From the NCBI RefSeq assembly GCF_004361815.1, contig NZ_SNWA01000002.1:3286001-3350000 (forward strand): a DNA stretch of 64,000 nt, given 5' to 3'. Positions 7,508 to 28,541 of this stretch are shown piece after piece. The notes under the pieces are model-generated. The model was not told where the DNA came from. It made no database searches and was given only the letters and a program-made list of their open reading frames with translations. Numbering within the stretch: position 1 is the first letter of the stretch; each line of letters begins with the position of its first letter. A program made the position numbers and the translations under genes. The stretch comes from Paraburkholderia sp. BL10I2N1 (GTDB lineage: Bacteria; Pseudomonadota; Gammaproteobacteria; Burkholderiales; Burkholderiaceae).

Positions 7508-7524
7508 CGGTTCACGTTGTCTTG

Positions 7525-12209: not shown

Positions 12210-13142
12210 TTAGAAGTTAACGTTGTCTGCGCCTTTTAGCGAAAGGATCGTTCTGGCTTCCTCCGGCGTCGCCACTTCGAGCGAAAATTCGCTGAGCAGT
12301 CGCCGGACCTTTCGGACTTGGTCTGCATTGTCTTTTGCCAAGCGTCCTTTCTTTATATACAGGCTGTCCTCAAGCCCGACACGGACGTTTCCGCCCATAA
12401 TGGCCGCTTGTGTCGCGACAGGCATTTGGTGCCGCCCTGCGGCGAGTACTGACCAGATGTAGTCGTCGCCAAATAGGCGATCGGCCGTTTGGCGCATGAA
12501 GACTACATTATCCCCATCGGGACCGATACCCCCAAGAATGCCGAAGACGCTTTGAATGAAAAGCGGCGGTTTGACAACGCCCTTATCAAGAAAGTATGCA
12601 AGATTATAGAGATGACCAATGTCGTAGCACTCGTGCTCGAAGCGGGTACCATGATCCGCCATTAGCTCATAGATGCGGGCTATGTCACGGAAGGTATTGC
12701 GGAAGATGAACGCTTCGCTGGCGGCAAGATACTCCCGTTCCCACGAAAACTTCCATTCAGAAATCTTCTCTTCGAGCGGATGCATGGAAAAGTTGATTGA
12801 ACCCATATTCAACGAACACATTTCGGGGCGAAACCTGAGCGCGGCCGCAAGCCGGTCCTCCACCGTCATCTCTGGACTGCCTCCCGTCGTGAGATTGATG
12901 ACAGCGTTCGTACGTTCCTTAATAACAGGTAGGAACTTGTTGAAAGTCTCCGGGTTGCCTGTGGGTGCTCCGGTTTCGGGGTCGCGCGCGTGGAGGTGGA
13001 GAATTGACGCGCCTGCGTCCGCTGCCGCGACCGCCTGCGCTGCGATGTCCGCTGGTTTATAGGGCAGATAATCGGAGAGTGTGGGAGTGTGGATTGCACC
13101 TGTGACGGCGCAGGTAACAATGACTTTGCGTTGCTTCTTCAT
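12210..13142 (-). CDS. BKACE beta-keto acid cleavage enzyme (DUF849), copy 1
   Basis: 310 residues. BKACE enzymes are TIM barrels that use Zn to condense a beta-keto acid with acetyl-CoA, giving acetoacetate and a new acyl-CoA. Zn ligands are visible: His49 and His51 in ILHLHARDPETGAPTG, and Glu258 in GNVRVGLEDSLY. The protein is nearly the same as copy 2 (27541-28473). The start follows a promoter with an internal palindrome (13234-13262). This copy belongs to a mirror-image duplicate of the main catabolic locus, whose other genes, except MarR, have decayed. Which R-group it accepts cannot be told from sequence. Confidence 0.93.
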   Translation of the reverse strand: MKKQRKVIVTCAVTGAIHTPTLSDYLPYKPADIAAQAVAAADAGASILHLHARDPETGAPTGNPETFNKFLPVIKERTNAVINLTTGGSPEMTVEDRLAAALRFRPEMCSLNMGSINFSMHPLEEKISEWKFSWEREYLAASEAFIFRNTFRDIARIYELMADHGTRFEHECYDIGHLYNLAYFLDKGVVKPPLFIQSVFGILGGIGPDGDNVVFMRQTADRLFGDDYIWSVLAAGRHQMPVATQAAIMGGNVRVGLEDSLYIKKGRLAKDNADQVRKVRRLLSEFSLEVATPEEARTILSLKGADNVNF

Positions 13143-13233
13143 GTCTACTCCTTGTATAACCGCAAGCTACGCGCTGCTGCTGGCGCAAGCGCGCTGAGAT
13201 GTATGCTACGTGACGCGAATTGCTTTGATGATG

Positions 13234-13262
13234 ATATTGGGTGTATATACGCGCATTGTCAA
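13234..13262 (-). promoter_or_regulatory. BKACE1 promoter with operator in the spacer
   Basis: On the minus strand, TTGACA (13257-13262), a 17-base spacer and CAATAT (13234-13239). The palindromic site TGGGTGTATATACGCGCA (13238-13255, plus strand) fills the spacer, so a bound repressor would block RNA polymerase. The layout is the same as at 27428-27456. Confidence 0.78.
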
Positions 13263-13352
13263 CGGTGTTAACTACGGGCTAACGTTGACGTCATTGAGCG
13301 AAGGCGATGACGGACCGACGCGACACGAAATGTTCAGACGCAACGAGGTAGA

Positions 13353-13440
13353 ACGCATCCGATGTAGGCTGGAAATTGAGAGCTTGACCGCTGGTAGGCT
13401 GCTGAACTGAAGAATGAGTTTGAAGAAATTGAGCCCGAAC
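13353..13440 (+). pseudogene. remnant of DUF485 gene (mirror copy)
   Basis: Starting at 13353, the frame reads T-HP-M-stop-AGN-stop-ELDRW, which lines up with HPTEFGNLEFDRLES at the start of the intact DUF485 protein (26965-27339). The DNA similarity is clear over about 40 bases and then fades. Its position next to the BKACE1 promoter mirrors the intact locus. Confidence 0.7.
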
Positions 13441-13617
13441 ATGGGCTCGCGCCAAAGTGCTTAACCGTTTCCGCTGGAAAGGATTTGCGACAACATCAGA
13501 AAACCAGCAACCCTGCGCGCTCAGCGGTTTGGTGCCGAGAGGGCGGTGAAGTAAAGATCCATGTCTGTGCCTTGCCCCGAGGCTGCACGCTAGCTACCGA
13601 GGATATGGGATAACTGC
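13441..13617. other. scar of deleted symporter gene (mirror copy)
   Basis: In the intact locus, a 1.6-kb symporter gene separates DUF485 from the hydratase. Here only about 180 bases remain between the two remnants and no symporter sequence is recognisable, so the gene appears to be deleted. Confidence 0.5.
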
Positions 13618-14203
13618 CTTTCCGAAGAACTGATGCTGTTCAGAAAGAGGTAACGTCGCCGTCATTGCCATGCAACTCGCTCCCCATAATCTGGTGCACA
13701 GCGTGCTGTGGAAGCTGCTGATGAGTGCGTGCTGCGTGCCGGGACCGAAAGCGCACGGCAACGGTAATCAGAAGCGGCTCAAGGCGATTTTCGGCTGAGA
13801 CGGAGGTGTCCCGCGTCGACGAGGGAGGCCTCACCAGCCCGAAGTAGATTTCGCCGGTGTTCTCGTACTGTCGACCAATTGCCGATCTCGGATATCCCGT
13901 CGGTTCACGGCATTGCGGTTGGTGGTGGGTAATTGGAGATTGCGCTCACTTCCGATCTCATCGTTGCGGCTGTTTCTTCAACAGTTTTATCGGAGCGACG
14001 ATGCCCGGCGTTCATCTGCTTACGGGAGGCGTGCGGCGCCGAGCTCCAAATTCCAACTATGTGGCTTGCTTACGAGATCGCGGCCGGCTCAACCATAGAG
14101 CATGCCCTGCTTTAAACAATTAGGGCGCGCACGCCGCGGCGAAGGAATCCGTGACATTTTTTCACCGTGCTACAAGTCAGCGGACTTGCAATGGGGTCTG
14201 GCA
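13618..14203 (+). pseudogene. remnant of enoyl-CoA hydratase gene (mirror copy)
   Basis: Decayed copy of the hydratase at 24560-25339. Recognisable pieces in order: ERGNVAVIAMQLAPHNLV (intact DGDVAVITMQFAPHNLV), IRSGSRRFSAETEVS, PSVHGIAVGGG followed by a stop codon and LEIALTSDLIVAA (intact SVHGIAVGGGFEIALASDLI), PGVHLLTGGVRR (intact LGLHPLMGGVQR), YEIAAGSTIEHA and YKSADLQWGLA. There are several frameshifts and stops, so no product is possible. The 3' end is fused by deletion to the CoA-transferase remnant. Confidence 0.85.
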
Positions 14204-14757
14204 CATCGATGTTGCCACGGCCGCAACCAGGCCGTGAATGAGCGCGTGCATGTTAATTTATCGGAAACTTTCTCGCGTGAGCCGCCCCCGTTTGCGGGCA
14301 CCGATTTCGCCATCCTTCAGGACGAGTACGAAAAGGAAAATCACAGTCGCAGCAGGTGTAATCGGTAGCCTCGCATTCCGCCTCTAAATTGGCGCGATGC
14401 GGCGTGCCGACCTTGTTCGCGATACGCGGTTCCTTACTCCCGAGCTTTAGCGTCGAGGCGCTGGATGCTCCGCTCGACTAGGCCAAGCTTGCGTCTTGGG
14501 GATGTTGCGCCATAGCAAGGACTTCGGTTCGCCGGAATGGACGAGATAGTGGGGCACCACCGAGGAGGGTGACAACCGCTCGAGAGGTACAGCCCGCGTA
14601 CCGGGGCAAGCCGTGGAAATCTTCCTGAGATGCACCCGAACACCTCGGAATCCCGGCTTTCCACGACGAGCATATCCGAGAAGCACTGTCCGAACTTGGG
14701 TACAGCGCAGACGTATTTGACGATGTCGTTGTCAGGAAGGTTATGTCATCTGATTGA
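14204..14757 (+). pseudogene. remnant of family III CoA-transferase gene (mirror copy)
   Basis: Decayed copy of the gene at 23326-24546, missing its first half. Pieces in order: HIDVATAAT, NERVHVNLS (intact NERVHVDLS), IGAMRRADL with a preceding stop, EALDAPLD-stop-AKLA, SRGTARVPG, and a well-preserved end, EHLGIPAFHDEHIREALSEL then GYSADVF, with the stop at 14755-14757 (intact EHPGIPAFRGEHNCEVLREL). Multiple frameshifts occur. It is followed by MarR1, exactly as the intact gene is followed by MarR2. Confidence 0.87.
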
Positions 14758-14851
14758 GTCGCTGGTTGCCTTTGTTGTGGAGATACGGAGCGCTGCTTAG
14801 TGTGGCGAGATTGCCCAGGCGCCGGTCCCTTTCGGACGCGTGCGAACTGGA

Positions 14852-14869
14852 TGCATATGCGCGTATACT
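14852..14869. promoter_or_regulatory. conserved palindrome upstream of MarR1
   Basis: TGCATATGCGCGTATACT, ending in a possible -10 box (TATACT), 34 bases before the MarR1 start. The same site with one change lies upstream of MarR2 (23226-23243). MarR proteins commonly repress their own gene through such sites, so autoregulation is likely. Confidence 0.6.
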
Positions 14870-14903
14870 GTTCCAAGTTGCCACAACCACCCGGAGACGT
14901 TCG

Positions 14904-15353
14904 ATGGAATTGCTTCAATGTAACTGTTCGTTTCTACGCAGTGCAACGCGTGCGTTGACGCAGGCATATGACGAGGTGCTCAGGCCAAGCGGCTTGCGTA
15001 TGACGCAATTCTCCATGCTCGCGCGAGCGTCAGCGGTAGGCGAAATTTCACTGAGCGAGCTGGCCGACCTGATGGCGATGGACCGTACTACTCTCGGAAG
15101 AAACTTGCGGCCCCTCGAGCGCGAGGGCCTCGTGCAAGTTGACATCGGGGAAGACAGGCGTGAAAGGCTGGTTACCGTGACGCCCGCTGGCGTGAAGGTC
15201 CTGGCTAGTGCCCTGCCGTTGTGGGAGCAAGTGCACCAACGTTTTGAGCGAAAGGTGGGTAAACGTGAAGCTAAAGAGTTGCGATTTGCTCTGAAACGGC
15301 TTGTAAGCGTGGGCCGAGAGTTGTCTGCGGAAAACGCGTGCCATCCTCAATGA
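14904..15353 (+). CDS. MarR-family regulator, copy 1
   Basis: 149 residues from the ATG at 14904 (MELLQCNCSFLRSATRAL), preceded by GGAG at 14893-14896. The winged HTH lies at about residues 45-95 (ISLSELADLMAMDRTTLGRN, then REGLVQVDIGEDRRERLVTV). Two cysteines, Cys6 and Cys8, near the N-terminus are conserved in copy 2 and could sense redox state or a reactive ligand. It is about three-quarters identical to copy 2 at 22742. It lies after the decayed CoA-transferase, the mirror of the intact arrangement, and remains open, so it may still act in trans on both BKACE promoters. Confidence 0.9.
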   Translation: MELLQCNCSFLRSATRALTQAYDEVLRPSGLRMTQFSMLARASAVGEISLSELADLMAMDRTTLGRNLRPLEREGLVQVDIGEDRRERLVTVTPAGVKVLASALPLWEQVHQRFERKVGKREAKELRFALKRLVSVGRELSAENACHPQ

Positions 15354-16168
15354 GCGTTGCCAGTGGCCATCGCGGTCCGCTGCTGGCAGGGCATAGTCCG
15401 TGCGCTCCATCCTCGTGATGCTCGGTATCCCAAGCGTTTCGCGTGCGGTGTGACCGCCGGGGTGCGGAGCCTCGACGGGGACAACGTCAGGATGGTTCTG
15501 ACAACCTGTACGCAGTTGCTCTGCGGCTGTCGACGCTGGCCGATGCCGTGATAGATTGAGGCATCAAAAGGATGTCGTTGTCCGCTGGTCAGATCGACAC
15601 CCATCGTCACGATTGCGGTTGCCAAAGCTACCCAAGGGCAGGGCACGCGAACCGTGACAATGAGGGCCGTATCAGGATTATTACCGACCCGGAAAGCGGT
15701 TATCCGGGTGACTGAGAATCGAAAGGCCCCTTCCCTGAGGTACTTTCGGATCAGCGGCTGCTTGGTCCCGCATAAGCCGTCGTTGTAACACCGCCACGAT
15801 CCCTGGCGCTGCTGATGCGCGCCGGCACGGTGGCGGCCCGTGGTCACTGGGGCGGCCACGAGGGCGTGGCGACGCTTGCATCACCGGTTTTGCAGGCGCG
15901 CCACGCGCACTTCTAATCGGGCCGGCGCCTCTATCGCAACCGCAACCGACTGAAAAATCGAAGTGCCGCTTACGTTGCGATGTCCGGCGAACCCGACGCG
16001 CCGGCCCCTTGCGTTTGGGTGTCACGTTGATAGTTACTTGGATCTTACAGATAGGTAACAGAACGTATTGACGGCAAGCGCACTTGCGGTGATCTTCGTG
16101 GCGTGCGTGATCTAAGGATCGCGTCGAAGTGGCCGCGCCTTGAGATTAAACCGTGGGAGAGACCAAAA
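15354..16168. other. long stretch without a supported gene
   Basis: About 800 bases. Overlapping frames exist on the minus strand (to 171 residues) but have Arg/Pro/Gly-rich composition without family features or a convincing ribosome binding site. This may be decayed sequence from the flank of the duplicated locus. Confidence 0.45.
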
Positions 16169-16570
16169 ATGCATGCACTGCGAGCGCTCAGAGAATCCGG
16201 GGTACACAGTCCACAGGATATAAGGGCAATACTTGCCGAAGATGTAGTCTTCAATTCCCCGGTTCTGACCCGGCCGTTAGCTGGCGCAGAAATCGTCTCT
16301 GCTGTACTCGCAGCGTCGGCGCTCGCTCGGGGTATCGGGGGACAGTATGTATCGGAGTACCGCGTTGACGCAGTCACGACGGTTCTGAGATGGCAAGGCA
16401 CCGTTCAGGGTCACTTACTTGAAAGCATCGAGATATTAGTTGATGACGCCGCAGGCCTTCTAGTTGAGCGGACAATCGCGTATCGTCCGCTGCCCGCTGT
16501 CGAGATATTCCGTGACCTGCTTTATCCTCTTATCAAAGACATTGTGCCGGCGGATTTGTGGGCTTATTGA
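16169..16570 (+). CDS. NTF2/SnoaL-like small protein
   Basis: 133 residues from the ATG at 16169, with GGGAGA at 16153-16158 as ribosome binding site; an in-frame ATG at 16103 lacks one. The pattern of an N-terminal helix, then LAEDVVFNSPVLTRPLAGAE and alternating strands (LRWQGTVQGHLLESIEILVD, GLLVERTIAYRP), is that of the cone-shaped NTF2-like fold. Members include polyketide cyclases, isomerases and dehydratases, as well as non-enzymatic proteins. It stands alone between decayed regions, so its role is not known. Confidence 0.7.
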   Translation: MHALRALRESGVHSPQDIRAILAEDVVFNSPVLTRPLAGAEIVSAVLAASALARGIGGQYVSEYRVDAVTTVLRWQGTVQGHLLESIEILVDDAAGLLVERTIAYRPLPAVEIFRDLLYPLIKDIVPADLWAY

Positions 16571-17271
16571 CAGATCCATGTGCTTTGAGCCGCCTTCGCG
16601 AAGGCACCAGGTCGCTACGCTGCGGTCGCTGAAGTAGCACGAAAGTTCAGGGCGTTAGCTACCTGGAGGCCAGGCAGCGGCGCCTTCCGTAATCGGCGGA
16701 TTACTGTGCGGCATGATTGCTTAGGCCATGCCGTAGAGCTTGCGCTGCAACGTCCAAAGACCGACCGCAATGCTCGCGCGAACAGATAGCGATGCCATCC
16801 CGTACGACTGTGGGCCAGCGTAGCGCGGTTCCCTTATAGCGCATACCGGCAGCAGCCGTCGCAGAACTCTTCACCGTTCGCCAACCATTGTTTGCCCGCG
16901 TGGCAATGGAATGTCTCACGCCGGAAACTGGCCGCCGTGTGCGCGAATTAAGGATATAATGCGCGTATATACACGTATTGTCCGTTGCGCAATCCGTATG
17001 TCATCCGCAGCTATAGGTCCCGAGTGGGCAAGCAGGATGTGAGCGTTACATGCAGCAGATGCGGCGCTATCCCTGGATCAGAACGCCCGGAAAGCTGCGC
17101 TGCCAACAACAGATCTGAGCTCGCTCGCCGTCCATGGAACGGGGCCGGCGACGGTTTCCGACAACTGCTCGGTTTTAGCCGAGCGGTTGCCGAAGCCGCG
17201 TTAGCTCAACAGTAATCGAAGACCGATCCTTAGATCGAGGTCCCGATGGGTTCAACTCGAGGTTTGCCAAG
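16571..17271. other. stretch without a supported gene, contains one operator site
   Basis: 700 bases before the chemotaxis receptor gene. A 72-residue minus-strand frame (16701-16919) lies downstream of the promoter-like site at 16956-16984 but shows no family features; it could be the remains of a deleted gene of the operator's regulon. Confidence 0.45.
16956..16984 (-). promoter_or_regulatory. promoter-like site with the BKACE-type operator
   Basis: TGCGCGTATATACACGTA (16960-16977) matches the palindrome of the BKACE promoters. On the minus strand it sits between CGGACA (16979-16984) and CATTAT (16956-16961), 17 bases apart. No clear gene follows on that strand. Confidence 0.6.
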
Positions 17272-18837
17272 ATGGCGTTTATCAAGAACATGAAGGTTGG
17301 GCGACGCCTCGGTGTCGGCTTTGCACTCGTACTGCTGCTATTGACTGCTGTCGGTTGCATTGGCGTGGTGCAGTCGTCCAGGATCTACGCCGGGACCCGC
17401 GCCATCTCGGAAGACTGATTGCCTAGTGTTGAGGCGTTGAGCGAAATCCGGCGCAGGGCCGACGACGTGCGTCGCATTTCCCTGCGCGAACTGCTTCCGG
17501 CAGACGAAAAGGGGATCAGCGAATTGCACGCACGTCGCGCGGCAGGGGTGATCGGATTTGCGGCTGCGATGCAAGAATATAAAAGGTATCTTTCCTCTGA
17601 CGATGAAAGAAGGCTTTACGAAGGTATCGAATCGTCGTGGGCGCGTTATCTTGATACGAGCGACCAGATTGAACGGTTGATGGGGTCAGCAGACGCCAAT
17701 TTGTCCAGCGCCCGTCAGCTTGCGGCCAGCGAAGGCGTTACGCGCTTTGCGACTACTCTGTCGTTCATAGACGCGGACAGCAAGCTTAATCATGATGGGT
17801 CTGTGCGGGAAGTTGAGGCTGCAAATGCGGCGTTCGTTAGCGCGCGCGTATGGACATTTGTCCTCATGATTGCTGCATTGATCGGGGGTGTTTCGATCGC
17901 CTTCCTCATCACCCGGTCTATTACTGTTCCACTGCAACAGTCCGTGCAATTAGCCGAGCGCGTCGCAAAAGGCGACCTAACATCAACGATACAAGCGGAC
18001 GGTGAAGATGAGATCAGCCTACTGCTCGCGTCGCTTGGGCGCATGAACGAGGGTCTTCGCGAGACGGTAGCACGCGTGTTTTCTGGCAGCGGAAGCATTG
18101 CGATCAGCTCTGCGGAGATCGCGACGGGAAACGCGGACCTGAGCCAGCGTACCGAAGAGCAGGCGGCCTCCTTGCAAGAAACGGCTGCCAGCATGGAACA
18201 GCTAGCGGCGACCGTACGGCGAAATACAGACGACGCAGGAAAAGGTAATTCGCTCGCTTCGCAGGCTTGCCAGACTGCTAGCCGCGGCGAGGCGATCGTA
18301 GGCCGGGTTGTCCAGACCATGAGCGACATATCGACCAGTTCCGGGAAAGTAACGCAGATAATTTCGGTGATCGAAGGCATCGCCTTCCAGACAAACATTC
18401 TGGCGCTCAATGCCGCAGTCGAGGCCGCGCGCGCTGGCGAGCAGGGAAGGGGATTTGCTGTAGTGGCCAGCGAGGTGCGTACGCTAGCACAGCGAAGCGC
18501 TTCGGCTGCCAAGGAGGTGAAGGACCTGATAACTCAGGCCGTCGCAACGGTCAGCGATGGCAGCGCCTTGGTCGAAGATGCTGGACTCACAATGCGTGAG
18601 ATTCTGGAATCCGTGCAACGGGTTGCCGAATTGATGCAAAAAATTAGCGCTGCATCCGAGGAACAGGATTCGGGAATTGCGCAGGCGACCGTTGCTATCT
18701 CGCAAATGGACGAGGTGACGCAGCGCAATGCGGCGTTGGTGGAACAGGTTTCGGCGGCGGCTCAATCGATGGCGGCTCAGTCGCGTTCTTTGCGCGACGT
18801 GGTGTCGGTATTCAAGGTGCCCGATTTCGACAGATAG
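17272..18837 (+). pseudogene. methyl-accepting chemotaxis protein with in-frame stop
   Basis: Starting at ATG 17272 the frame gives a normal receptor N-terminus with the first membrane span (GVGFALVLLLLTAVGCIGVV), then TGA at 17416-17418 (codon 49), then continues in the same frame to 18837. The stop lies where related receptors have Trp (the WLPSV segment), so a single TGG-to-TGA change is likely. The rest is complete: helical ligand domain, second span ([17 protein letters not shown]), HAMP (residues about 210-262) and the signalling tip [20 protein letters not shown]. There is no C-terminal NWETF-type methylation tether. Without readthrough, the receptor lacks its first anchor. Confidence 0.88.
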
Positions 18838-18957
18838 CCAGTCCTATTACGCCAAGATCCGGCCGTCGCGGAGCGGCCGCAGAGCTTGCTGCAGTCCAGT
18901 CGGAATTCCGGCTGCGACGCCTCAGGTTTGCCGGCCGAATGTTACGGCAAAGCTGTA

Positions 18958-20080
18958 GTGTCGTACCTGGGCAAAGCTGAAGCGTCGCATGTCATGCTGG
19001 CTGACCTTTGATGGGAGGCTCACATGACGACATCCGGGACGATCACCATGACGATGCGCGAGGTTGACCGGCTCAGGACGATCCAGTCGGTAGTCGATGG
19101 CATGCTGATGACGTGGCAGGCTGCGGAGCGGCTCCATCTGAGCCGGCGTCAGGTCGAGCGGCTGACGGTGCGGTATCGTAGCCAGGGCGCATCAGGCGTC
19201 CTGTCACGGCATCGTGGGCATCCGAGCAACTACCAGCTGGCCGATGGCGTGGCTGAGCGGGCGTTGAACCTGATCCGGGACTGCTACACGGATTTGGGCC
19301 GACGCTGGCGTGCGAGAAACTGCGTGAATGTCATGGGCTGGCGCTGTCAAAGGAAACGGTGCGTCACCTGATGACGGAGGCTGGCTTGTGGATTCCGCGC
19401 CGGCAGCGACCGCCGAAGATCTACCAGCCGAGAAGCCGTCGTGCCTGTCTGGGCGAGCTGATCCAGATCGACGGCAGCGATCATCGCTGGTTCGAGGAAC
19501 GGGCGCCGGCGTGCACGCTGCTGGGCTATGTGGACGATGCCACGAACCGGCTGATGGCACTGCACTTCGCCACCGAATTGACCTTCAGCTATTTCGAGGC
19601 GATGGCGCGTACCTTAAACAGCGTGGCAAGACGGTGGCGCTGTACAGCAACAAGTACAGCGTGTTTCGCGAGACGGGCGCGAACAAGGACGGCAATAGCC
19701 TGACTCACTTTAGCCGCTCGATGCGTACGAATTGAACGTCGATACATTCTGCGCAAATGGCAGTCCGGCCACGAGGCGCGTGGACCGTGCGCATGTGACG
19801 TCGCCTGACCGGCTCGTCAAGGAACTGCGACTACGTGGTATCAGCACAGTCGGCGAAGCCAACGCCTATGCACGTGTTTTCATGGCGGCCCTGTAACGCA
19901 CGCTTCGCTAAGCCGCCGAAGAGCGACCTGGATGCGCACCGGCCGCTACGCGCGAATGAGAGCCCTGAGCTGGTGATGACGTAGCGCGAGCCGCGAAAGG
20001 TGACGAAGTCGTTGACGGTGCAGTACGCCCGGGTCATGTATCGACTGGACGACACGCCGGAAAACCAGAAAGCCTATTGC
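18958..20080 (+). pseudogene. ruined ISNCY/IS1202-type transposase gene
   Basis: A degraded relative of the intact transposase at 42958-44445. Matching pieces fall in changing frames: MREVDRLRTIQSVVDG (19048 onward), the region around 19310 to 19610 (RHLMTEAGLWIPRRQRPPKI, LGELIQIDGSDHRWFEE, VDDATNRLM), TFCANGSPA, DRLVKELRLRGIST and NARFAKPPKS. At least four frameshifts are present and the 3' end is lost. It is not a copy of the intact element but a diverged cousin. Confidence 0.85.
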
Positions 20081-20313
20081 GCCAGACACCAGCCTGCTCA
20101 AAAATTTTCTCCCTGCGATCTCATCGTCGAATCCCATTCTCTGCGATTCCACGTTGGCTCACTACGCCCCGCAAGCAAGGCATGCCGCCCCTGTGCGACA
20201 AGGCAGGCGCCCCTGCCATCGCCTACTCGACGCAACCCATGATGCCACGGCGGAACCCTTCGCAGTGGCCTACGGTACGTTTTGCTCACCCCGTTAATCC
20301 GCAAGACTCCCAG

Positions 20314-20342
20314 TTGACATTGCGCGTATATGCACCCATTAT
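20314..20342 (+). promoter_or_regulatory. promoter with BKACE-type operator upstream of porin
   Basis: TTGACA (20314-20319), 17 bases, CATTAT (20337-20342), with TGCGCGTATATGCACCCA (20321-20338) filling the spacer. The next gene on this strand is the porin at 20616, which would have a leader of about 265 bases. Confidence 0.68.
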
Positions 20343-20615
20343 TCAGCTCCGATGTGAACACTGGCTTACGGCGTTTCGTGAAAACGTCGTTAACGTGAGG
20401 TAGTTCACGATGCAGTTTGGGAAGTGCTCAAAGGTAGGAACCGGCTGTGTCCGCGCGGCTGGAGACTGCCGTCGGCGGCACTGACAGCAACAGGCTGTGG
20501 AAGGCAGGCCTGTACGCCCTTCTCTCGTCTTCGGCGCGAACTGGGAATCGGGGCGGGCAGAAGGCTGGCGCTATGAAAACGACCATACAGCAAGACAAGA
20601 GTCAACGGAGACGTC

Positions 20616-21803
20616 ATGATGAAGAAAACCTTCTTTGCAGCCGCAGCCGCAGCCGCTGGCAGCCCTGCCAGCGCATTACCTGTCGATAGTCACGCACAAA
20701 ATAGCGTGACGCTTTACGGCGTTATTGACGCTGGTTTCCCATACGTCAACAAGGTAGCGAGCGCCACAGGACATGGCAGCGTTCTAAAATATGGTGACGG
20801 TGTCTCGCAAGGTAGCCGCTTCGGAATTCGAGGTGCCGGAGACCTCGGGGGCGCCCTCAAAGCACTGTTTGTGCTGGAAAATGGTTTCAACAGCGGTGAT
20901 GGCACGCTGGGACAAGGCGGTGCAATGTTCGGACGCCAAGCGTACGTCGGTCTGGCGAAGGTTGGAATCGGCTCCCTAACGCTTGGCCGCCAGTACTCGC
21001 TTTCAACCGATATTCTCGGCGCTGGGTACACGACGGGTAGTCAGACACCTGCGGGCAATTACGCTTATCACATTAACGACCTCGACCAGCTCGTTCAGAG
21101 TCGTCTCAACAATGCCGTAAAGTTCAGCAGCGCAAATTTTGCGGGATTGACATTCGGCGCGATGTACGCTTTCTCAAACTCGACGAACTTTTCCGGTGCG
21201 CCGACGACAACCGCCGGCACCACGACCACCCAAGGTTCATCGAGCGCCTATAGCTTCGGTGCGAATTATACGAACGGTCCCTTCGCCATCGGCGCCGCCT
21301 ACACCAATACTCGCTATCCCAACGGAGCAACACCACCGTTTGGCGTGAGCGTCGCGAACGTAAATACCGGAGGCCTCCGCGACCTCGAAACGTTCGGCAT
21401 CGGGAGCCGGTATGCAATTGGCGCTGGCCTGGCATGGGCTAACTGGACGCGCACAAAGTTGGAACCGCTGGCGGGTCGATCGTCAACACTGAACAACTAC
21501 GAAATTGGCGGCCGATATCTGTTCACTGCAGCACTTAATGTCGGATTAGGCTACACATTCTCCGACCTCAGTGATCGTTTCGAAGGGAAATGGCACCAGG
21601 TCAATGGAGCAGTTGACTACGCGCTGTCGAAGCGTACGGACATTTACTTCCTGGCGGTTTATCAAAAGGCATCGGGCAGCAACTCGGTTGCCGGCCGCTC
21701 TGTCCAAGTTCAGGCTGAGATCGGTTCCGCACCTTCTTTCATCGGGAACGCAGGTGCGAACTCACAACTCGTGACTCGCGTTGGGCTTCGTCACAAGTTT
21801 TGA
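20616..21803 (+). CDS. Gram-negative general porin (OmpC-like, Burkholderia type)
   Basis: 395 residues. The start MMKKTFFAAAAAAAGSPASA and the SHA-QNS junction form a signal peptide, followed by the family opening SVTLYGVIDAG. The protein is a 16-stranded barrel with characteristic pieces (GSRFGIRGAGDLGGALKALF, FGRQAYVGL, LTLGRQYS) and ends LVTRVGLRHKF, the terminal Phe being the BAM-recognition signal. It forms trimers that let small solutes through the outer membrane. The upstream promoter carries the same operator as the BKACE genes, so it is probably induced with that pathway to admit its substrate. Confidence 0.92.
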   Translation: MMKKTFFAAAAAAAGSPASALPVDSHAQNSVTLYGVIDAGFPYVNKVASATGHGSVLKYGDGVSQGSRFGIRGAGDLGGALKALFVLENGFNSGDGTLGQGGAMFGRQAYVGLAKVGIGSLTLGRQYSLSTDILGAGYTTGSQTPAGNYAYHINDLDQLVQSRLNNAVKFSSANFAGLTFGAMYAFSNSTNFSGAPTTTAGTTTTQGSSSAYSFGANYTNGPFAIGAAYTNTRYPNGATPPFGVSVANVNTGGLRDLETFGIGSRYAIGAGLAWANWTRTKLEPLAGRSSTLNNYEIGGRYLFTAALNVGLGYTFSDLSDRFEGKWHQVNGAVDYALSKRTDIYFLAVYQKASGSNSVAGRSVQVQAEIGSAPSFIGNAGANSQLVTRVGLRHKF

Positions 21804-21919
21804 TTTTCGCAGAAGACGCAACCCGGCTCGGTGCTGCACCCCACCGCCAACGAGGCAGCATTGGGACCCGCTGAAGAACGCGCTAGTAGACCATGTACGC
21901 GAGAACTAAGGAGCACATG

Positions 21920-22308
21920 ATGAGCAACAATTCACAAGAGGCCGGTATGGCCCGCCGCACCCAAGTGATGGGGGCAGACTTCGTCGAGCGTGCGATGTCG
22001 TCTGCTGACGCGTTTTCCCGCCCTTTGCAGGAATGGCTGAATGAGCATGCGTGGGGCACGACGTGGTTACGCGACGGGCTTGATCTCAAGACCCGGAGCC
22101 TCTGCACATGCGCAATGCTTGCCGCGCTCGAAAAGGTGCCGAACTGAAAGGCCATATACGTGGCGCCATTAACAATGGTGCGACTACAACCGAAATCCGC
22201 GAGGTCTTACTTCACAGTGCAATATATGCTGGGGCGCCTGCAGCTGTCGAAGCGTTTCGAAACGCTGGCGAAGTGCTGCAGGAACTTGGTGCGAGCATCC
22301 CCGAATAG
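21920..22308 (+). pseudogene. carboxymuconolactone decarboxylase family gene, frameshifted
   Basis: Two frames together make one CMD/AhpD-like protein. The first (ATG 21920, AAGGAG at 21908-21913) runs through RTQVMGADFVERAM and LKTRSLCTCAMLAALEK and then hits a stop. The second continues KGAELKGHIRGAINNGATTT, then EIREVLLHSAIYAGAPAAVE. Adding one A to the run at 22131-22134 would give the expected ALEKGAELKGH. The family includes PcaC, which decarboxylates 4-carboxymuconolactone, and many proteins of unknown role. It follows the porin by 116 bases. It is either a real 1-base deletion or a sequencing error in a homopolymer. Confidence 0.85.
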
Positions 22309-22741
22309 CCGAACCTCCGCCAAAAGGATCCCGCAACAACACGCTCCAAGAAAGCGTCGTGTCGCAAACACGTCAGTATCAAGAAAGACCGCGATCTCGT
22401 ACCGGGCCCACCAGTCCCCGAGTTCCCACTTTCATCGACGCAATTCACCTGATCAAGGCATCGCGACAGTAACCCGCTGACCAAATCAAAGTGGTGTGCA
22501 ACGCTCCGCCCCGGTTTCGCTCCGGGCTTTAAGGCAACAGAGGTATAAGCACGATCCAGTATGGCCCTGACGACTACCCGGTAAGTGCGGTCGAAGCCAT
22601 CCAAATCCGCGAAGCCCGCATATCAGTGGATACGATATTGCTGTGCAATGCAGCCGTCGGTTGGTGCTTACATCGTCGCCTCCAGCTTTCGATGACGTAA
22701 GTCGATCGCCGATCCGCAGTCGATGAGGCCAATGAGCCACT
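22309..22741. other. intergenic stretch without a supported gene
   Basis: 430 bases between the CMD remnant and MarR2. A 130-residue minus-strand frame runs antisense into the CMD gene and has no recognisable features. Confidence 0.5.
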
Positions 22742-23191
22742 TCAACCAATGACTGTCTCATTCTCCGCAGACAATTCCCTGCCTACATTCACAATCCTCT
22801 TGAGCGTGTGGCGTAGTTCCTTAGATTCGCGTTTCCCCAACTTCTGCTCAAACCGCAGATGCACGCTCTCCCATAGGGGCAATGCACGAGCCAAGAGCTT
22901 CCGGCCAGCCGGAGTGACGCTGACAAGTCTCTCGCGCCTGTCTTCCCCAACGTTGATTTGTACGAGGCCCTCCCGTTCGAGTGGCTGCAGATTGCGGCCC
23001 AGTGTTGTGCGATCCATTGCCATCAAATCTGCCAACTCACTCAACGACATCTCCCCCACTGCCGACGCACGCGCAAGCATGGAGAATTGAGTGATACGTA
23101 GTCCGCTTGGTCTAAGTACTTCGTCGTACGCTAGTGAAAGGGCACGGGTCGCACTGCGCAAAAACGAACAGTTACATTGCAGCAATTCCAT
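22742..23191 (-). CDS. MarR-family regulator, copy 2
   Basis: 149 residues starting MELLQCNCSFLRSATRAL at 23191, the same start as copy 1. The winged HTH (MSLSELADLMAMDRTTLGRN, then REGLVQINVGEDRRERLVSV) and the Cys6/Cys8 pair are present. It is the last gene of the intact CoA-transferase-hydratase-symporter group, separated from the CoA-transferase by 134 bases that contain its own palindrome (23226-23243). It is the best local candidate for controlling the pathway, but direct evidence for its operator is lacking. Confidence 0.92.
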   Translation of the reverse strand: MELLQCNCSFLRSATRALSLAYDEVLRPSGLRITQFSMLARASAVGEMSLSELADLMAMDRTTLGRNLQPLEREGLVQINVGEDRRERLVSVTPAGRKLLARALPLWESVHLRFEQKLGKRESKELRHTLKRIVNVGRELSAENETVIG

Positions 23192-23225
23192 CGGGGCCTC
23201 TCAGGAAAAATCCATGTCAAAAGTT

Positions 23226-23243
23226 AGTATACGGGCATATGCA
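23226..23243. promoter_or_regulatory. conserved palindrome upstream of MarR2
   Basis: AGTATACGGGCATATGCA; its reverse complement differs by one base from the site upstream of MarR1 (14852-14869). The surrounding DNA is less conserved than the site, which supports a binding function. Confidence 0.6.
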
Positions 23244-23325
23244 TTTTGTTATCGACGTTGCAAAACGACAGTACAAAACTGGGAATCTCTGCCACCGGCG
23301 CAGAGATTCTTCCTTGGATCAGCGA

Positions 23326-24546
23326 CTACTGAACAGCTGGGTCTTTCGTCATGACGTTCCGGTTAGTCAGCTCCGCAATCTGTTCCGAGGTGTAGCCCAA
23401 CTCGCGAAGCACTTCGCAGTTATGTTCTCCGCGGAAGGCGGGAATGCCGGGATGCTCGAGTTCATTGGCCGAAAATCGCCACGGCTTCCCCGGCACACGT
23501 GCTGTGCCGCCCGCGCGGTCATCGATAGCTTCGGTCGCACCCCACCATTGCGCCCACTCTGATTCGGCGAAATCCTTGATGTCCCTAACCACGCCGAACG
23601 CCAGCTTGGCCTCGTCCAGTTGAGCGTCCAACGCCGCAAGGCTATCGAACGTAAGGATCCAGTCCTGTACGATCTGATGAAACTCGGCGAGATTTTTTTT
23701 GCGAAGTTCCGGCGTCTGGAAGCGTGGATCGCGCGCAAGGTCCGCACGTCGCATTGCGCCGATGTAGAGGGGGAACGACAGGCTCGCAACGACGCTCGTA
23801 GCAATTGTGATCTTCTCGCCGGTGCTCGTCCGGAAGAATGGCGAGAATGACGGCCCCAGCGCCGGAGGTTCGGCCCCGAGATCGGCATCGGACAAGTCCA
23901 CGTGCACCCGCTCGTTAATGGCCAGCATGGTGGCAGCCATTGCCACGTCGATATGCTGCCCCTCACCGGTTACGCCGCGGCGATGCAAGGCTGCGAGCAC
24001 CCCGATGGTAGCTTCAAGACCGGTGTAAATGTCAGCGTGCGAATAGGGATCGTGTCGGTCTTGCGCGAGGTCGTCTCCCAGATGGGAGAGGAAAGTGGAC
24101 GTGAACCCTGACTCTGCATGCACAGTAGGCGCATAGGCAGCACGATGCGACAGCGGGCCGCCTTGACCATATCCGCTGATGGAGACGTAGATGAGTCTCG
24201 GGTTAATCTCGCGCACGGACTCGTAGTCAAGACCGAAGAACGCCAGTGTCCCGGCTCTGAAGTTCTCAACCAGAATATCGGCTTCACTGATCAGCTTCTT
24301 CGCAATCTCCCGCGCTTCCGGGTAATTCAGGTCAAGGCTGACGTTGCGCTTTCCAGCATTTTGCTGAATATAGTAATACGAAATCGAGTTGTATTGCGGC
24401 AACGCCGAACGCGAAATGTCAGGTCGCGGCGGCTCGACCTTAATTACATCGGCGCCGAGGTCATGCAACGTCTTCGCACAGTGCGGTCCCGCAAGCACGC
24501 GCGAGAAGTCTATTACCTTGATGCCTGAAAGTGGCCCCTTGCTCAT
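23326..24546 (-). CDS. family III CoA-transferase (CaiB/BaiF)
   Basis: 406 residues from the ATG at 24544-24546 (MSKGPLSGIKVIDFSRVLAG), with GAGG upstream. Family III features are clear: the N-terminal GIKVIDFSRVLAGPHCAKTL, DLGADVIKVEPPRPD, NAGKRNVSLDLNYPEAREIA, ADILVENFRAGTL, LIYVSISGYGQGG and GEGQHIDVAMAAT. The enzyme moves CoA from an acyl-CoA donor to a carboxylic acid and would activate the pathway's acid. The residue a few places after HIDVAM that is often acidic in this family is Ala here, in both this gene and the decayed copy; this alignment is uncertain. It lies 13 bases after the hydratase gene in the same operon. Confidence 0.92.
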   Translation of the reverse strand: MSKGPLSGIKVIDFSRVLAGPHCAKTLHDLGADVIKVEPPRPDISRSALPQYNSISYYYIQQNAGKRNVSLDLNYPEAREIAKKLISEADILVENFRAGTLAFFGLDYESVREINPRLIYVSISGYGQGGPLSHRAAYAPTVHAESGFTSTFLSHLGDDLAQDRHDPYSHADIYTGLEATIGVLAALHRRGVTGEGQHIDVAMAATMLAINERVHVDLSDADLGAEPPALGPSFSPFFRTSTGEKITIATSVVASLSFPLYIGAMRRADLARDPRFQTPELRKKNLAEFHQIVQDWILTFDSLAALDAQLDEAKLAFGVVRDIKDFAESEWAQWWGATEAIDDRAGGTARVPGKPWRFSANELEHPGIPAFRGEHNCEVLRELGYTSEQIAELTNRNVMTKDPAVQ

Positions 24547-24559
24547 GTCATCCTCGTTT

Positions 24560-25339
24560 TCAGTTGCCTTCAAAGACCGCACTACCGGGTCCCGTCGTTG
24601 CAAATGCGTCTAGACCGCGCTGAAGGTCAGCGGTCCGGTAGATGGCATCAGCGATATCGGCCATTGCCTCATCCGCTGCACGCATCCCATTGTTACTGTA
24701 AAGCGAGGCGAGCCGCTTGGTGGCGGCATGAGCGACGGTCGGACCAGCCGCAATTTCTCGAGCGACCGACATCGTCACAGCTTCCAGTTCAGAGTCGGGG
24801 ACGACACGATTGATCACGTTCCAGCGCTCGAGCGTCGCCGCGTCGTGCCTGCGAGCAAGCAAGACGATTTCTTTCGCCCTCGCGAGGCCGACGCGGTCGA
24901 TAAGGCGCTGCACGCCCCCCATGAGAGGGTGCAGCCCCAGCGTCGCTTCGACTAGGCCCATCTTTGCGGATGCTGCGGCGATAATCAGATCTGAAGCAAG
25001 AGCAATCTCAAATCCACCGCCAACGGCGATACCATGGACGGAGGAAATGATCGGGATCGGAAGTTCATCAAAGGCGCGAAGGACACCGACGAAGTCAACG
25101 TCGTTACGACGCGCGCCTGCGTTTTCAAAAAGCGACATCTCCGCTCCAGCCGAAAAATGTCGCAATCCGCTTTTGATGACGACCGCTCGCGCCTTCTCTC
25201 TTTCGGCACGCTTCAGGTTGTCGATCAACGCTTCTGACAGCGTTTTTCCCACAAGGTTATGGGGGGCGAACTGCATTGTGATGACGGCAACATCGCCGTC
25301 TTTCGCGAATTGGATCGCTTCGGTATCAAGTGAAGTCAT
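24560..25339 (-). CDS. enoyl-CoA hydratase/isomerase (crotonase family)
   Basis: 259 residues from the ATG at 25337-25339, chosen for the strong AAAGGA ribosome binding site and normal family length. The oxyanion-hole segments are present: LRHFSAGAEMSLFENA and SSVHGIAVGGGFEIALASDL. Glu residues in GGGFEIAL and GLVEATLGLHPLMGG fit the two catalytic positions of hydratases. It would hydrate an enoyl-CoA made from the CoA-transferase product. It lies between the symporter (46 bases upstream) and the CoA-transferase. The crotonase family is functionally broad, so isomerase or decarboxylase activity is possible. Confidence 0.92.
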   Translation of the reverse strand: MTSLDTEAIQFAKDGDVAVITMQFAPHNLVGKTLSEALIDNLKRAEREKARAVVIKSGLRHFSAGAEMSLFENAGARRNDVDFVGVLRAFDELPIPIISSVHGIAVGGGFEIALASDLIIAAASAKMGLVEATLGLHPLMGGVQRLIDRVGLARAKEIVLLARRHDAATLERWNVINRVVPDSELEAVTMSVAREIAAGPTVAHAATKRLASLYSNNGMRAADEAMADIADAIYRTADLQRGLDAFATTGPGSAVFEGN

Positions 25340-25385
25340 CTTGTTTCCTTTATAGATAACGTGTAGTTGAGCGAGGGTGCCGGCG

Positions 25386-26972
25386 TCAGTGCTCGATCGC
25401 CTCCTCGGCACCGTACCCGCTAAGCATCCGCAACTGCTGCTCTTCGAAGCTACTGGCAGACGTTCTTTGAGAAGTGATCAACGAGACGAGCCAACCAGCC
25501 ACAAAGCCGCAAGGGATGCTGATGATTCCCGGATTGGCGAGGGAAATCAGTGGCGTAGTAGTTTTGAACACGAGACCATGTGCGCCAATGACGGCCGGTC
25601 CCACAAGGACAAGTCCTATTGAAGAGAGAACACCAACAACGACGGCCGCGACGGCGCCTGCGTCAGTGAATCGGCGCCAGTAGAGTGTCAAGAGGATGAC
25701 GGGCAGATTCGCGCTGGCCGCAATGACAAAAGCAAGTCCGACAAGAAACGCGACGTTCAAGGACTTCACTGCCAGCGCGAGGCAGATTGCGACTATCCCA
25801 AACGTCACAGTCGCAATCTTGGCCACACGAACCTGACGCTTGTCCTGCGCGTCGTTGCGGAAGATCAGCATCGCAAAAATGTCGTGGGCAATCGTCGATG
25901 CGGAGGAAATCATGATGCCGGACACAACCGCGAGGATCGTCGCGAACGCGATCGCGGATACACAGGCAAGCAACATTTCCCCGCCGAACGATCCCACGCC
26001 ACCGCCCAACGAGACAGCGAGCAGCGTTATTGCGCTATTACCTGCCTTGTTTGATTGGAGGATCGACTGCGGACCCACGATTGCGCATGCTGCAAAGCCT
26101 AAGAGACAGACCATGATTGCAAATGATGTCATGACAACGAGTGCGATCTTTGCCGAATGCCTTGCGTCGACCGCCGACGGTACGGTGTAGAAACGTGTCA
26201 TGACGTGCGGAAGTCCAGCCGTTCCAAGAGCGAGAGCGATCGCGAGCGAAACGGTGTCCAGAGGGTTTTTAAGGTACGCCCCTGGAATCAGATAGTGATC
26301 CGGATGCAAAGAAGAGGCTTTAGCCTTCGTGAACATCGCCCCAACGTCAAACGAAAAATGTGCGAGCGCTAGCACGAGCAGAAAAGCTGCCGCAGACCAT
26401 ACGAGGATAGCTTTGACGATCTGAACATACGTCGCTCCGACCATGCCGCCGAACAGCACATAGGCGATCATGAGCACGCCGATCAGAATCACTGCTGCAT
26501 CCGTGCCAATCGGCAGCAAGAGGCTTGCGAGCGCGCCAGCACCCACGAGTTGCGCAAGCAGATAGGCCAGGGCAATGAGCAGCGACGACACGGCAGTTGC
26601 CCCCCGCACCGATGCCGACGGCAGACGAAGCGCAACAACGTCCGACAGAGTGTATTTGCCGCAGTTGCGCACCGGCTCGGCGACAATCAACATGATCATC
26701 AACCAACCGACGATAAACCCAACCTGATAAACGAGACCGTCAAACCCGAACAGCGCCACGAGCCCTGTTACCCCCAAGAACGACGCGGCGGACATGAAGT
26801 CGCCAGAAATCGCAAGCCCATTTTGCATTGGCGTGAGATTGCGCCCTGCAACAAAGAATCCAGCCGCTCCTTTTGACCGACGCGAAGCCCAACTCGTCAA
26901 CAACAGACTGAGCAGAATGAACGCGGCGAATGCAGCAATCCGGACGCCGCCGCCAGATATGAAATTAGACAT
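25386..26972 (-). CDS. sodium:solute symporter, ActP-like
   Basis: 528 residues from the ATG at 26970-26972, which overlaps the DUF485 stop. There are 13 predicted membrane spans. SSF features include FFVAGRNLTPMQNGLAISGD then FMSAASFLGV near the N-terminus, and GLPHVMTRFYTVPSAVDARH in the middle; together with the adjacent DUF485 gene these point to the acetate/short-chain monocarboxylate branch (ActP, MctC). It takes up an organic acid with Na+ across the inner membrane. The overlap with DUF485 suggests translational coupling. The substrate is probably the acid that the CoA-transferase activates. Confidence 0.92.
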   Translation of the reverse strand: MSNFISGGGVRIAAFAAFILLSLLLTSWASRRSKGAAGFFVAGRNLTPMQNGLAISGDFMSAASFLGVTGLVALFGFDGLVYQVGFIVGWLMIMLIVAEPVRNCGKYTLSDVVALRLPSASVRGATAVSSLLIALAYLLAQLVGAGALASLLLPIGTDAAVILIGVLMIAYVLFGGMVGATYVQIVKAILVWSAAAFLLVLALAHFSFDVGAMFTKAKASSLHPDHYLIPGAYLKNPLDTVSLAIALALGTAGLPHVMTRFYTVPSAVDARHSAKIALVVMTSFAIMVCLLGFAACAIVGPQSILQSNKAGNSAITLLAVSLGGGVGSFGGEMLLACVSAIAFATILAVVSGIMISSASTIAHDIFAMLIFRNDAQDKRQVRVAKIATVTFGIVAICLALAVKSLNVAFLVGLAFVIAASANLPVILLTLYWRRFTDAGAVAAVVVGVLSSIGLVLVGPAVIGAHGLVFKTTTPLISLANPGIISIPCGFVAGWLVSLITSQRTSASSFEEQQLRMLSGYGAEEAIEH

Positions 26973-27339
26973 GTTGGACCTCGCGAGTAGCTTGTTGCGC
27001 ATGCAACCTCAAAGAGGCCGCGCGTGCGTCGAACTTCGCGGCCGCCCACGTGCAATAGGCCCAGAAAGCAGCCACCGTTACAAGCAGTTGCGCAGCCACC
27101 GCTGCCAGGCCGATGTTGATCTCACCATACAGAGACTGGCTCATCGCAGCGGGCGATGACAGGACCAAAATCAACAGACCAAAGTAGATAGCGAGCGATC
27201 CCCCAAGCAGCGGCCAGACAAACCGGTTCCGGGTCTTGGCCAACTCCCACGTCTTCGCAACAAGCTCTGTCGACTCTTCCACCGCTCCTGCCGATTCCAG
27301 CCGGTCGAACTCAAGATTTCCAAACTCTGTCGGGTGCAT
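26965..27339 (-). CDS. DUF485 (YjcH-like) membrane protein
   Basis: 124 residues with two membrane spans (PLLGGSLAIYFGLLILVLSS, then IGLAAVAAQLLVTVAAFWAY). DUF485 proteins are small inner-membrane partners almost always encoded directly before an ActP-type symporter, as here. It is the first gene of the leftward operon and diverges from BKACE2; a shared control region (27340-27540) lies between. A mutated stub of the same gene is at 13353-13440. Confidence 0.92.
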   Translation of the reverse strand: MHPTEFGNLEFDRLESAGAVEESTELVAKTWELAKTRNRFVWPLLGGSLAIYFGLLILVLSSPAAMSQSLYGEINIGLAAVAAQLLVTVAAFWAYCTWAAAKFDARAASLRLHAQQATREVQHV

Positions 27340-27427
27340 CTCCGCCTCCTTGCCTCAATGTTTTCGTGACGCGCTGACTTCATTGCGCTGCGTCTTCCGT
27401 GTATGCGTTGTACTCGCGTAAACACCG

Positions 27428-27456
27428 TTGACAATGCGAGTATATACACGCAATAT
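27428..27456 (+). promoter_or_regulatory. BKACE2 promoter with operator in the spacer
   Basis: TTGACA (27428-27433), 17 bases, CAATAT (27451-27456). The spacer holds TGCGAGTATATACACGCA (27435-27452), an 18-bp palindrome broken only at one symmetric base pair. A downstream 16-bp block, CATCAAAGCAATTCGC (27462-27477), is also conserved at BKACE1 (13215-13230, reverse strand). A repressor bound here would cover both promoter boxes. Confidence 0.8.
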
Positions 27457-27540
27457 AGCGTCATCAAAGCAATTCGCATCACTTGGTGTAAACACCAACA
27501 GGGACCTGCGCTGTCAGGTTGCAATCAATCAGGAGCCGCC

Positions 27541-28473
27541 ATGAAGAAGCAGCGTAAAGTCATTGTCACTTGTGCCGTGACAGGCGCTATTCACACCCCT
27601 ACGCTTTCCGACTATCTGCCGTATAAGCCTGAGGACATCGCAGAGCAGGCGATTGCCGCTGCAGAAGCAGGTGCATCAATCCTTCATCTTCACGCACGCG
27701 ACCCGGAGACGGGCGCCCCGACCGGCAATCCAGAGATTTTCTCGAAGTTTCTGCCAGTTATTAAGGAACGTACGAACGCCGTCATTAACCTGACAACGGG
27801 CGGTAGTCCCGAAATGACAGTTGAAGACCGGCTCGCGGCAGCGCTCATGTTTCATCCAGAGATGTGCTCGCTGAACATGGGCTCCATTAATTTCTCAATG
27901 CATCCGCTTGCGGGGAAAATTTCTGAATGGAAATTTCCGTGGGAGAAGGAATACCTTCTGGCGAGCGAGGCATTCATCTTTCGCAACACGTTCCGAGACA
28001 TTGCAAGAATCTATGAGTTGATGACCGACCACGGCACCCGCTTCGAACACGAATGCTATGACATCGGCCATCTATATAACCTCGCGTATTTCCTCGATAA
28101 GGGACTCGTCAAACCGCCTTTCTTTATTCAGAGTGTGTTCGGCATCTTGGGCGGAATTGGGCCTGAGGCGGACAACGTCGTTTTCATGCGACGTACCGCG
28201 GACCGTCTTTTCGGTACCGATTACATCTGGTCCGTTCTTGCTGCGGGCCGCCACCAGATGCCGGTGGCAACGCAGTCGGCTCTTATGGGAGGAAACGTCC
28301 GCGTGGGGCTTGAAGACAGCCTGTATATCGAACGAGGCCAGCTTGCCAGAAGTAACGCGGATCAAGTTACCAAGATAACGCGCATGCTTAGCGAGTTCTC
28401 GCTGGAAGTCGCAACGCCGGACGAAGCGAGGGAGATGCTGCACCTGAAGGGCGGAGACAACGTTAGCTTCTGA
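27541..28473 (+). CDS. BKACE beta-keto acid cleavage enzyme (DUF849), copy 2
   Basis: 310 residues from the ATG at 27541, with AGGAGCC upstream. It is nearly the same protein as copy 1, with the same Zn ligands (HLHARD at 49-51, Glu258 in VGLEDSLY). It converts a beta-keto acid plus acetyl-CoA to acetoacetate plus an acyl-CoA. It is the first gene of a rightward operon with DUF302, a PanE-like reductase and a thiolase; the thiolase can split the resulting acetoacetyl-CoA. It diverges from the symporter-hydratase-CoA-transferase operon, so both arms probably serve one pathway. Confidence 0.94.
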   Translation: MKKQRKVIVTCAVTGAIHTPTLSDYLPYKPEDIAEQAIAAAEAGASILHLHARDPETGAPTGNPEIFSKFLPVIKERTNAVINLTTGGSPEMTVEDRLAAALMFHPEMCSLNMGSINFSMHPLAGKISEWKFPWEKEYLLASEAFIFRNTFRDIARIYELMTDHGTRFEHECYDIGHLYNLAYFLDKGLVKPPFFIQSVFGILGGIGPEADNVVFMRRTADRLFGTDYIWSVLAAGRHQMPVATQSALMGGNVRVGLEDSLYIERGQLARSNADQVTKITRMLSEFSLEVATPDEAREMLHLKGGDNVSF

Positions 28474-28541
28474 GCAAAGCATCGCGTGTCGCGTGTAAAG
28501 AATCAGGTACTCGAACCATCATCAATAAGGAGATATTTATC

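Follow-up and report, generated by a model that had tools for sequence, protein, structure and literature searches.

The window analysed here is a stretch of 64,000 nucleotides (C2:3286001-3350000) in the 9.2-Mb genome of Paraburkholderia sp. BL10I2N1. It contains two related loci, each with genes for a β-keto acid cleavage enzyme (BKACE) and a MarR-family regulator (Table 1). In the intact locus, the DUF485, symporter, hydratase, CoA-transferase and MarR2 genes lie on one strand and BKACE2 is divergent. The second locus has decayed, and its only open frames encode BKACE1 (310 amino acids) and MarR1 (149 amino acids from position 14904; an alternative 199-amino acid open reading frame (ORF) depends on a doubtful upstream TTG). 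The regulator left at the decayed locus, MarR1, is under strong purifying selection and, as judged from predicted operator sites to which it would bind, probably persists as a self-regulated repressor of a local regulon.

The relation between the two loci was established by blastn comparison of the reverse complement of 12210-15353 with 22742-28473. Inverted matches were obtained in conserved segment order for BKACE and its upstream region (12209-13272 versus 28474-27418, 75.2%), hydratase (13643-13961 versus 25304-24984, 65.5%), CoA-transferase (14448-14683 versus 23644-23412, 67.9%; 62-68% for the whole remnant) and MarR (14902-15334 versus 23193-22761, 73.9%). When the remnants were re-scored by local alignment against block-shuffled controls (60 shuffles each), the hydratase remnant scored 109 and the CoA-transferase remnant 93, against null maxima of 29 and 24, respectively; a further stretch at 14201-14265 matched weakly (26 versus 20). 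For the symporter, neither blastn nor a protein search of 13143-14903 gave a meaningful match (best E 0.41). A preliminary description of the window had proposed an inverted counterpart with the same segment order, in which transport and activation genes had been lost and only BKACE and MarR remained open, and all of this is borne out. The peptides by which it had recognised the hydratase (IAVGGG*LEIALTSDLI) and CoA-transferase (EHLGIPAFHDEHIREALSEL) remnants are likewise present. Matches had been expected in every named segment; they were found for BKACE, promoter, hydratase, CoA-transferase and MarR, only weakly for DUF485, and not for the symporter.

The history of the decayed locus could be followed in two relatives. 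Among 71 named loci surveyed for the operon, many of them short, that of Paraburkholderia graminis C4D1M alone contains it complete, with 94-99% protein identity, and this strain also carries the decayed locus with an open MarR1 (98.7% identical). In both genomes the CoA-transferase remnant carries the same frame-shifting deletion of 59 bp, and short frame-shifting deletions are likewise common to the two hydratase remnants; decay of this locus is therefore older than the split between the window species and P. graminis. Since then, the hydratase remnants (85.6% identical) have acquired 5 further frame-shifting indels, and the CoA-transferase remnants 7 (83.9% identical over 14275-14800, a stretch that runs ~100 bp past the remnant). 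The promoter and hydratase remnants, ~0.3 kb apart in the window, are separated by ~1.4 kb in P. graminis, where BKACE1 has lost ~680 bp and has a 2-base frame change in the rest. On plasmid p3 of Caballeronia zhejiangensis (NZ_CP084287.1) the cluster is colinear with the window: ene-reductase, response regulator, amidase, a solitary MarR1, chemoreceptor, the intact MarR2-to-BKACE2 operon and thiolase follow in the same order. It differs in that neither BKACE1 nor recognisable remnants of its operon were found in the 40 kb fetched, and no porin is annotated between chemoreceptor and operon. Of these three genomes, only that of the window retains BKACE1, whereas MarR1 is intact in all of them.

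MarR1 exceeded the gathering score of the MarR domain PF01047 (24.6) with 32.6, and MarR2 with 27.6. Comparison of MarR1 between the window and P. graminis revealed 2 nonsynonymous and 23 synonymous changes, a ratio of nonsynonymous to synonymous substitution rates (dN/dS) of 0.025 at a synonymous divergence of ~0.21 (binomial p = 2e-12 against neutrality). The corresponding dN/dS values are 0.112 for MarR2 and 0.033-0.107 for the other genes of the intact locus. Against C. zhejiangensis, a dN/dS of 0.054 was obtained for MarR1 at a synonymous divergence (dS) of ~1.6. The selective survival that had been claimed for both end genes therefore holds for the regulator, open in three genomes and under purifying selection, but not as a rule for BKACE, since BKACE1 has suffered a deletion and a broken frame in P. 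graminis and is missing from the 40 kb of p3 that were fetched.

Conservation extends upstream of MarR1. The block immediately 5' of the gene, identical to P. graminis throughout, includes a palindrome, GCATATGCGCGTATAC, at 14853-14868, and the element GTTGCCACAA from 14877. The nearby remnant pseudogenes differ from P. graminis by 14-16%, and at pseudogene divergence an unchanged 70-bp block would be expected by chance with a probability of ~5e-6 to 2e-5. On p3, GTTGCCACAA and the core palindrome (one base changed) are again found upstream of MarR1. In the window and in P. graminis the palindrome before MarR2 is degenerate; in C. zhejiangensis it could not be recognised. The stretch DRTTLGRNL, which we take from MarR folds to be the putative recognition helix, is identical in both regulators of the window and of P. 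graminis; on p3, MarR1 has it unchanged and MarR2 differs by one residue.

Both BKACE promoters, read by eye, consist of TTGACA and CAATAT separated by 17 nucleotides, with the palindrome GCGTGTATATACGCGC (with mismatches) in the spacer. The consensus promoter scanner gave two hits overall in four stretches; the only promoter it called at BKACE2 was the opposite one, TTGATG-17-TATACT, directed towards DUF485. Sites with at most one mismatch to the palindrome number four in the whole genome, and all fall within ~30 kb (C2:3283069-3313451), at the ene-reductase gene (just left of the window), BKACE1, the chemoreceptor gene and BKACE2. At up to two mismatches, 13 strand-hits at 11 places were obtained, against 8 strand-hits for a reversed control, and 5 of the 11 places lie in the cluster, the fifth at the porin (two mismatches here, one in P. 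graminis). The chance under uniform placement that the other two sites would lie within 20 kb of the pair that defined the motif is ~3e-5, a value to be read with the distance having been chosen afterwards. Across 144 genomes of the genus, at most one mismatch being allowed, only the window genome (4) and P. graminis (3) contain three or more sites; among the remaining 142, 19 genomes contain 20 sites in total, with at most two per genome, and the reversed control gave 18 hits in the whole set. At up to three mismatches, all five sites have counterparts in P. graminis and three (ene-reductase, chemoreceptor and BKACE) on p3. The chemoreceptor site has two mismatches in C. zhejiangensis, where the gene is open, as it is in P. 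graminis. In a by-eye comparison of 13220-13262 with 27428-27470, the hexamers directed towards the dead operon were spaced by 15 bases in the window and P. graminis and by 17 in the intact locus.

These observations suggest the following model. A catabolic cluster common to the window, P. graminis and the C. zhejiangensis plasmid is home to two versions of a MarR-controlled BKACE operon that diverged long ago and lie side by side. By the time the window species and P. graminis separated, the version-1 operon was already dead, with MarR1 living on and BKACE1 as a late survivor, present in only one of the three genomes compared. MarR1, apparently self-regulated from its own conserved promoter region, would bind the operator palindrome of surrounding genes (both BKACE promoters, porin, chemoreceptor and ene-reductase) and act as a second local repressor alongside MarR2. 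Given the same nine helix residues in the two regulators and the shared sites, both probably repress the same cluster. Retention of MarR1 would allow repression to be set independently of the operon, whereas MarR2 is the operon's last gene. We infer that the most likely reason for the purifying selection on MarR1 is binding to, and repression from, the palindrome shared by the surrounding genes. A more far-reaching version, a serious possibility that is advanced tentatively, is that MarR1, freed from the operon, may be the putative self-regulated master of the local regulon, controlling the chemoreceptor (sensing), ene-reductase (reduction) and BKACE2 (cleavage) in three genomes and the porin (uptake) in two, with MarR2 having lost its own palindrome and depending on the operon promoter.

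Local repressors of catabolic operons are a known class within the MarR family. The present system resembles them in its winged-helix MarR domain, in the location of the regulator gene within the controlled cluster and in the palindromic site between the -35 and -10 hexamers; it differs in that two diverged MarR paralogues would share one set of sites, one of them without an operon. The underlying process, gene loss with a retained transcription factor, is ordinary. The locus nevertheless offers a clear-cut natural example of a regulator that has outlived its operon, in which decay, selection, promoter footprint and likely operators lie within ~30 kb and can be checked in two relatives. It also supplies a specific operator candidate with which to study a BKACE regulon, and two defined MarR paralogues between which division of labour can be examined. 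A search of PMC full text (retained regulators, BKACE, triacetate/phloroglucinol degradation) showed no study of this cluster among the papers listed.

Several observations weigh against the proposed role of MarR1. The palindrome before MarR1 is phased unlike the others, with which it shares the half-site TATACGCGCAT, and the consensus scanner found no promoter at BKACE1 or MarR1. Two of the four sites in the window genome served to define the motif, 6 of the 11 two-mismatch places lie elsewhere in the genome, at about control level, and the three p3 sites carry two mismatches each. The chemoreceptor gene is interrupted in the window, and its site has three mismatches in P. graminis. The difference in constraint is not significant either between MarR1 and MarR2 (Fisher p = 0.09) or between MarR1 and the pooled intact locus (Fisher p = 0.27), and the proposal that MarR1 is significantly more constrained than these was dropped.

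The origin of the two versions was addressed with trees built from best matches, 47 of 120 listed database proteins plus three of our own for BKACE (50 rows) and 51 of 71 plus four for MarR (55 rows). BKACE1 and BKACE2 are 88% identical, and MarR1 and MarR2 83%. BKACE1 clusters, on a long branch, with database proteins P0002 and P0004, and BKACE2 falls among further proteins from Paraburkholderia and Caballeronia; MarR1 joins P0125, P0128 and a protein from Burkholderia anthina (P0124), and MarR2 groups with P. phenoliruptrix and Caballeronia. In the approximately unbiased (AU) test, forcing BKACE1 with the BKACE2 group (6 rows) was rejected (p = 0.008), as was MarR1 with the MarR2 group (6 rows; p = 0.0002); wider clades were not clearly rejected (p = 0.18 for BKACE, with P0002, and 0.05 for MarR). 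Because the tested groups were named after the trees had been seen, these p values will be somewhat too favourable. That one locus might be of foreign composition was considered and discarded, since G+C content at third codon positions is alike (0.61 versus 0.62 for the BKACEs).

One possible origin, if on the doubtful side, is that the operon was duplicated long ago within the mobile cluster, at a time when the versions of Paraburkholderia and Caballeronia had not yet split, with later loss in each. MarR1 and MarR2 occupy the same relative place and orientation on p3, the wider BKACE clade was not rejected and third-position composition is similar in both loci. Close relatives of BKACE1 (P0002, P0004) and MarR1 (P0125 and the B. 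anthina protein) nevertheless occur elsewhere, and import of a second version would explain them too. This alternative concerns origin only; the outcome for MarR1 would be the same as in the model above, and both may hold together.

The target of MarR1 is a separate matter. That the gene owes its retention to some unconnected target in another part of the genome, the local palindromes being irrelevant, is unlikely: the 9.2-Mb sequence has no additional site at one mismatch or fewer, and MarR1 remains in the cluster in three genomes, although strong selection by itself names no target and the differently phased palindrome before MarR1 would fit this explanation.

Quite unlikely is an inverted duplication within this lineage, with later loss of redundant genes and retention of BKACE1 on account of its dosage or of a second substrate, as the preliminary description had it. 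The identical, mirrored gene order speaks for it, as does BKACE1 itself, which is open, keeps Tyr173 and scores above the NF053538 cut-off. However, neither pair of paralogues forms a clade, on which ground local duplication was ruled out as a candidate, and BKACE1 is broken or absent in both cluster-bearing relatives. The check on synonymous and nonsynonymous change that had been proposed for the two pairs met saturated synonymous sites (pS ~0.81 for each), which with the separate clades argues against a duplication made in this lineage. Finally, that MarR1 has simply not decayed yet, as the lingering lone BKACE1 shows to be feasible, is very improbable given its dN/dS, the frame-shifting indels gained meanwhile by the adjacent pseudogenes and its intactness in C. 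zhejiangensis at near-saturated synonymous divergence.

The mirror arrangement is not a stable trait. Positions 1-18939 of the window are colinear with P. graminis, and a following ~13-kb block is flipped, so that the two loci are direct repeats there. Given that the order in C. zhejiangensis is that of the window, the inversion probably arose in the P. graminis line and the window orientation is probably older; a tandem-direct ancestor with a flip in the window was dropped for the same reason.

Both BKACEs match PF05853 (cut-off 24.8) and NF053538 (cut-off 430) over their full length, BKACE1 with scores of 353.9 and 530.8 and BKACE2 with 354.6 and 531.7. PMC12871164 gives Tyr173 as the catalytic tyrosine of PdKce. 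In BKACE1 and BKACE2 this residue would lie inside RFEHECYDIGHL, the register being taken from equal ranges (4-310) against 8rio. Of the amino-acid changes in the comparable last 97 codons of BKACE1, 15 were assigned to P. graminis and 5 to the window, a further 3 being ambiguous, and there were 6 synonymous changes; window BKACE1 looks somewhat relaxed, or partly constrained at best. Accelerated evolution of BKACE1 was rejected as a candidate, because Tajima relative-rate counts of 16:8, 15:9, 15:8 and 16:6 passed the 5% level only in the last case. BKACE1 may serve gene dosage or act on a second substrate.

The diversity of BKACEs has reportedly been surveyed by Bastard et al. NF053538 denotes 3,5-dioxohexanoate:acetyl-CoA acetone transferase. 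As described in PMC10470551, triacetate acetoacetate-lyase of Clostridium scatologenes, a BKACE, converts 3,5-dioxohexanoate and acetyl-CoA to acetoacetate and acetoacetyl-CoA; according to that paper, its cluster resembles the present one in containing thiolase and CoA-transferase genes and differs in that the CoA-transferase here belongs to family III (CaiB-type). Because thiolase and CoA-transferase genes accompany BKACE2, the cluster may plausibly encode a pathway for keto acids of the triacetate type.

Table 1. Features of the two loci and their surroundings, in window coordinates.
Feature	Position	Strand	Basis or remark
BKACE1, open, NF053538-type β-keto acid cleavage enzyme	12210..13142	-	PF05853, NF053538
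BKACE1 promoter, TTGACA, 17 nt, CAATAT	13234..13262	-	by eye; not called by consensus scanner
Operator-like palindrome GGGTGTATATACGCGC	13239..13254	+	motif scan; kept beside dead P. graminis BKACE1
DUF485 stub	13319..13477	+	weak match, score 33 versus null maximum 24
Enoyl-CoA hydratase remnant	13643..14034	+	blastn and shuffled-control alignment
CoA-transferase family III remnant	14201..14700	+	blastn and shuffled-control alignment
Conserved 5' block of MarR1	14834..14903	+	70/70 bases same as P. graminis
MarR1, retained regulator	14904..15353	+	PF01047
Operator-like site upstream of chemoreceptor	16961..16976	-	1 mismatch
Methyl-accepting chemotaxis protein	17272..18837	+	one in-frame stop (17416)
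Block inverted in P. graminis (~13 kb)	20267..33585	.	comparison with P. graminis
Porin promoter, TTGACA-17-CATTAT, operator-like site 20322-20337 in spacer	20314..20342	+	scanner score 10/12
Porin (Porin_4)	20616..21803	+	domain match
MarR2, last gene of intact operon	22742..23191	-	PF01047
CoA-transferase family III, intact, actual start probably more internal	23326..24603	-	PF02515
Enoyl-CoA hydratase/isomerase, intact, actual start probably more internal	24560..25411	-	PF00378
Sodium:solute (acetate-type) symporter, intact	25386..27002	-	PF00474
DUF485 protein, intact	26965..27339	-	PF04341
BKACE2 promoter, TTGACA-17-CAATAT, operator-like site 27436-27451	27428..27456	+	by eye
BKACE2, intact	27541..28473	+	PF05853, NF053538

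Related genes were also found further afield. A family-wide search for MarR1 reached E 1e-45 in 5 of 398 genomes, the window genome included, and the other four proteins are 61-65% identical; no BKACE match was found in the 38 kb fetched from one of these genomes (G018), nor in the 38 kb from a genome that came from the genus search (G167). The MarR1 protein cluster P0121 contains 11 sequences. A Variovorax locus (L060) encodes hydratase, CoA-transferase and BKACE homologues with 44-66% identity. In Cupriavidus sp. UYMMa02A (L012, 11065-15001), BKACE, DUF485, symporter, hydratase and CoA-transferase all run in one direction; the matches jump frames, through decay or sequencing errors, and a 46% identical MarR lies ~7 kb off. 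A further MarR-like protein is encoded at the left end of the cluster (G146:C52:82481; L152 6444-6854). It is ~42% identical in C. zhejiangensis, and the P. graminis copy, recognised by eye, lies beside a three-mismatch palindrome in a TTGACA-17-CAATAT setting.

Mobile elements were observed at several points in the window. Two copies of an ISL3-family insertion element, 99.93% identical, lie at 6242-7660 and 56946-58364; the left copy is absent from P. graminis (the flanking matches overlap by 9 bases) and appears to split a LysR-type gene (5800-6192, 7504-8181). An insertion with an rve-domain transposase at 4187-5443 is likewise absent from P. graminis. Transposase-like stretches at 19054-20066 and 42988-44005, named by eye, are 72% identical, with no Pfam hit for the ORF tested, and one of them lies at the left edge of the block flipped in P. 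graminis. At 21893-22147, an 84-amino acid ORF corresponds to the first part of a 138-amino acid ORF of P. graminis (L010 4498-4914) and seems shortened.

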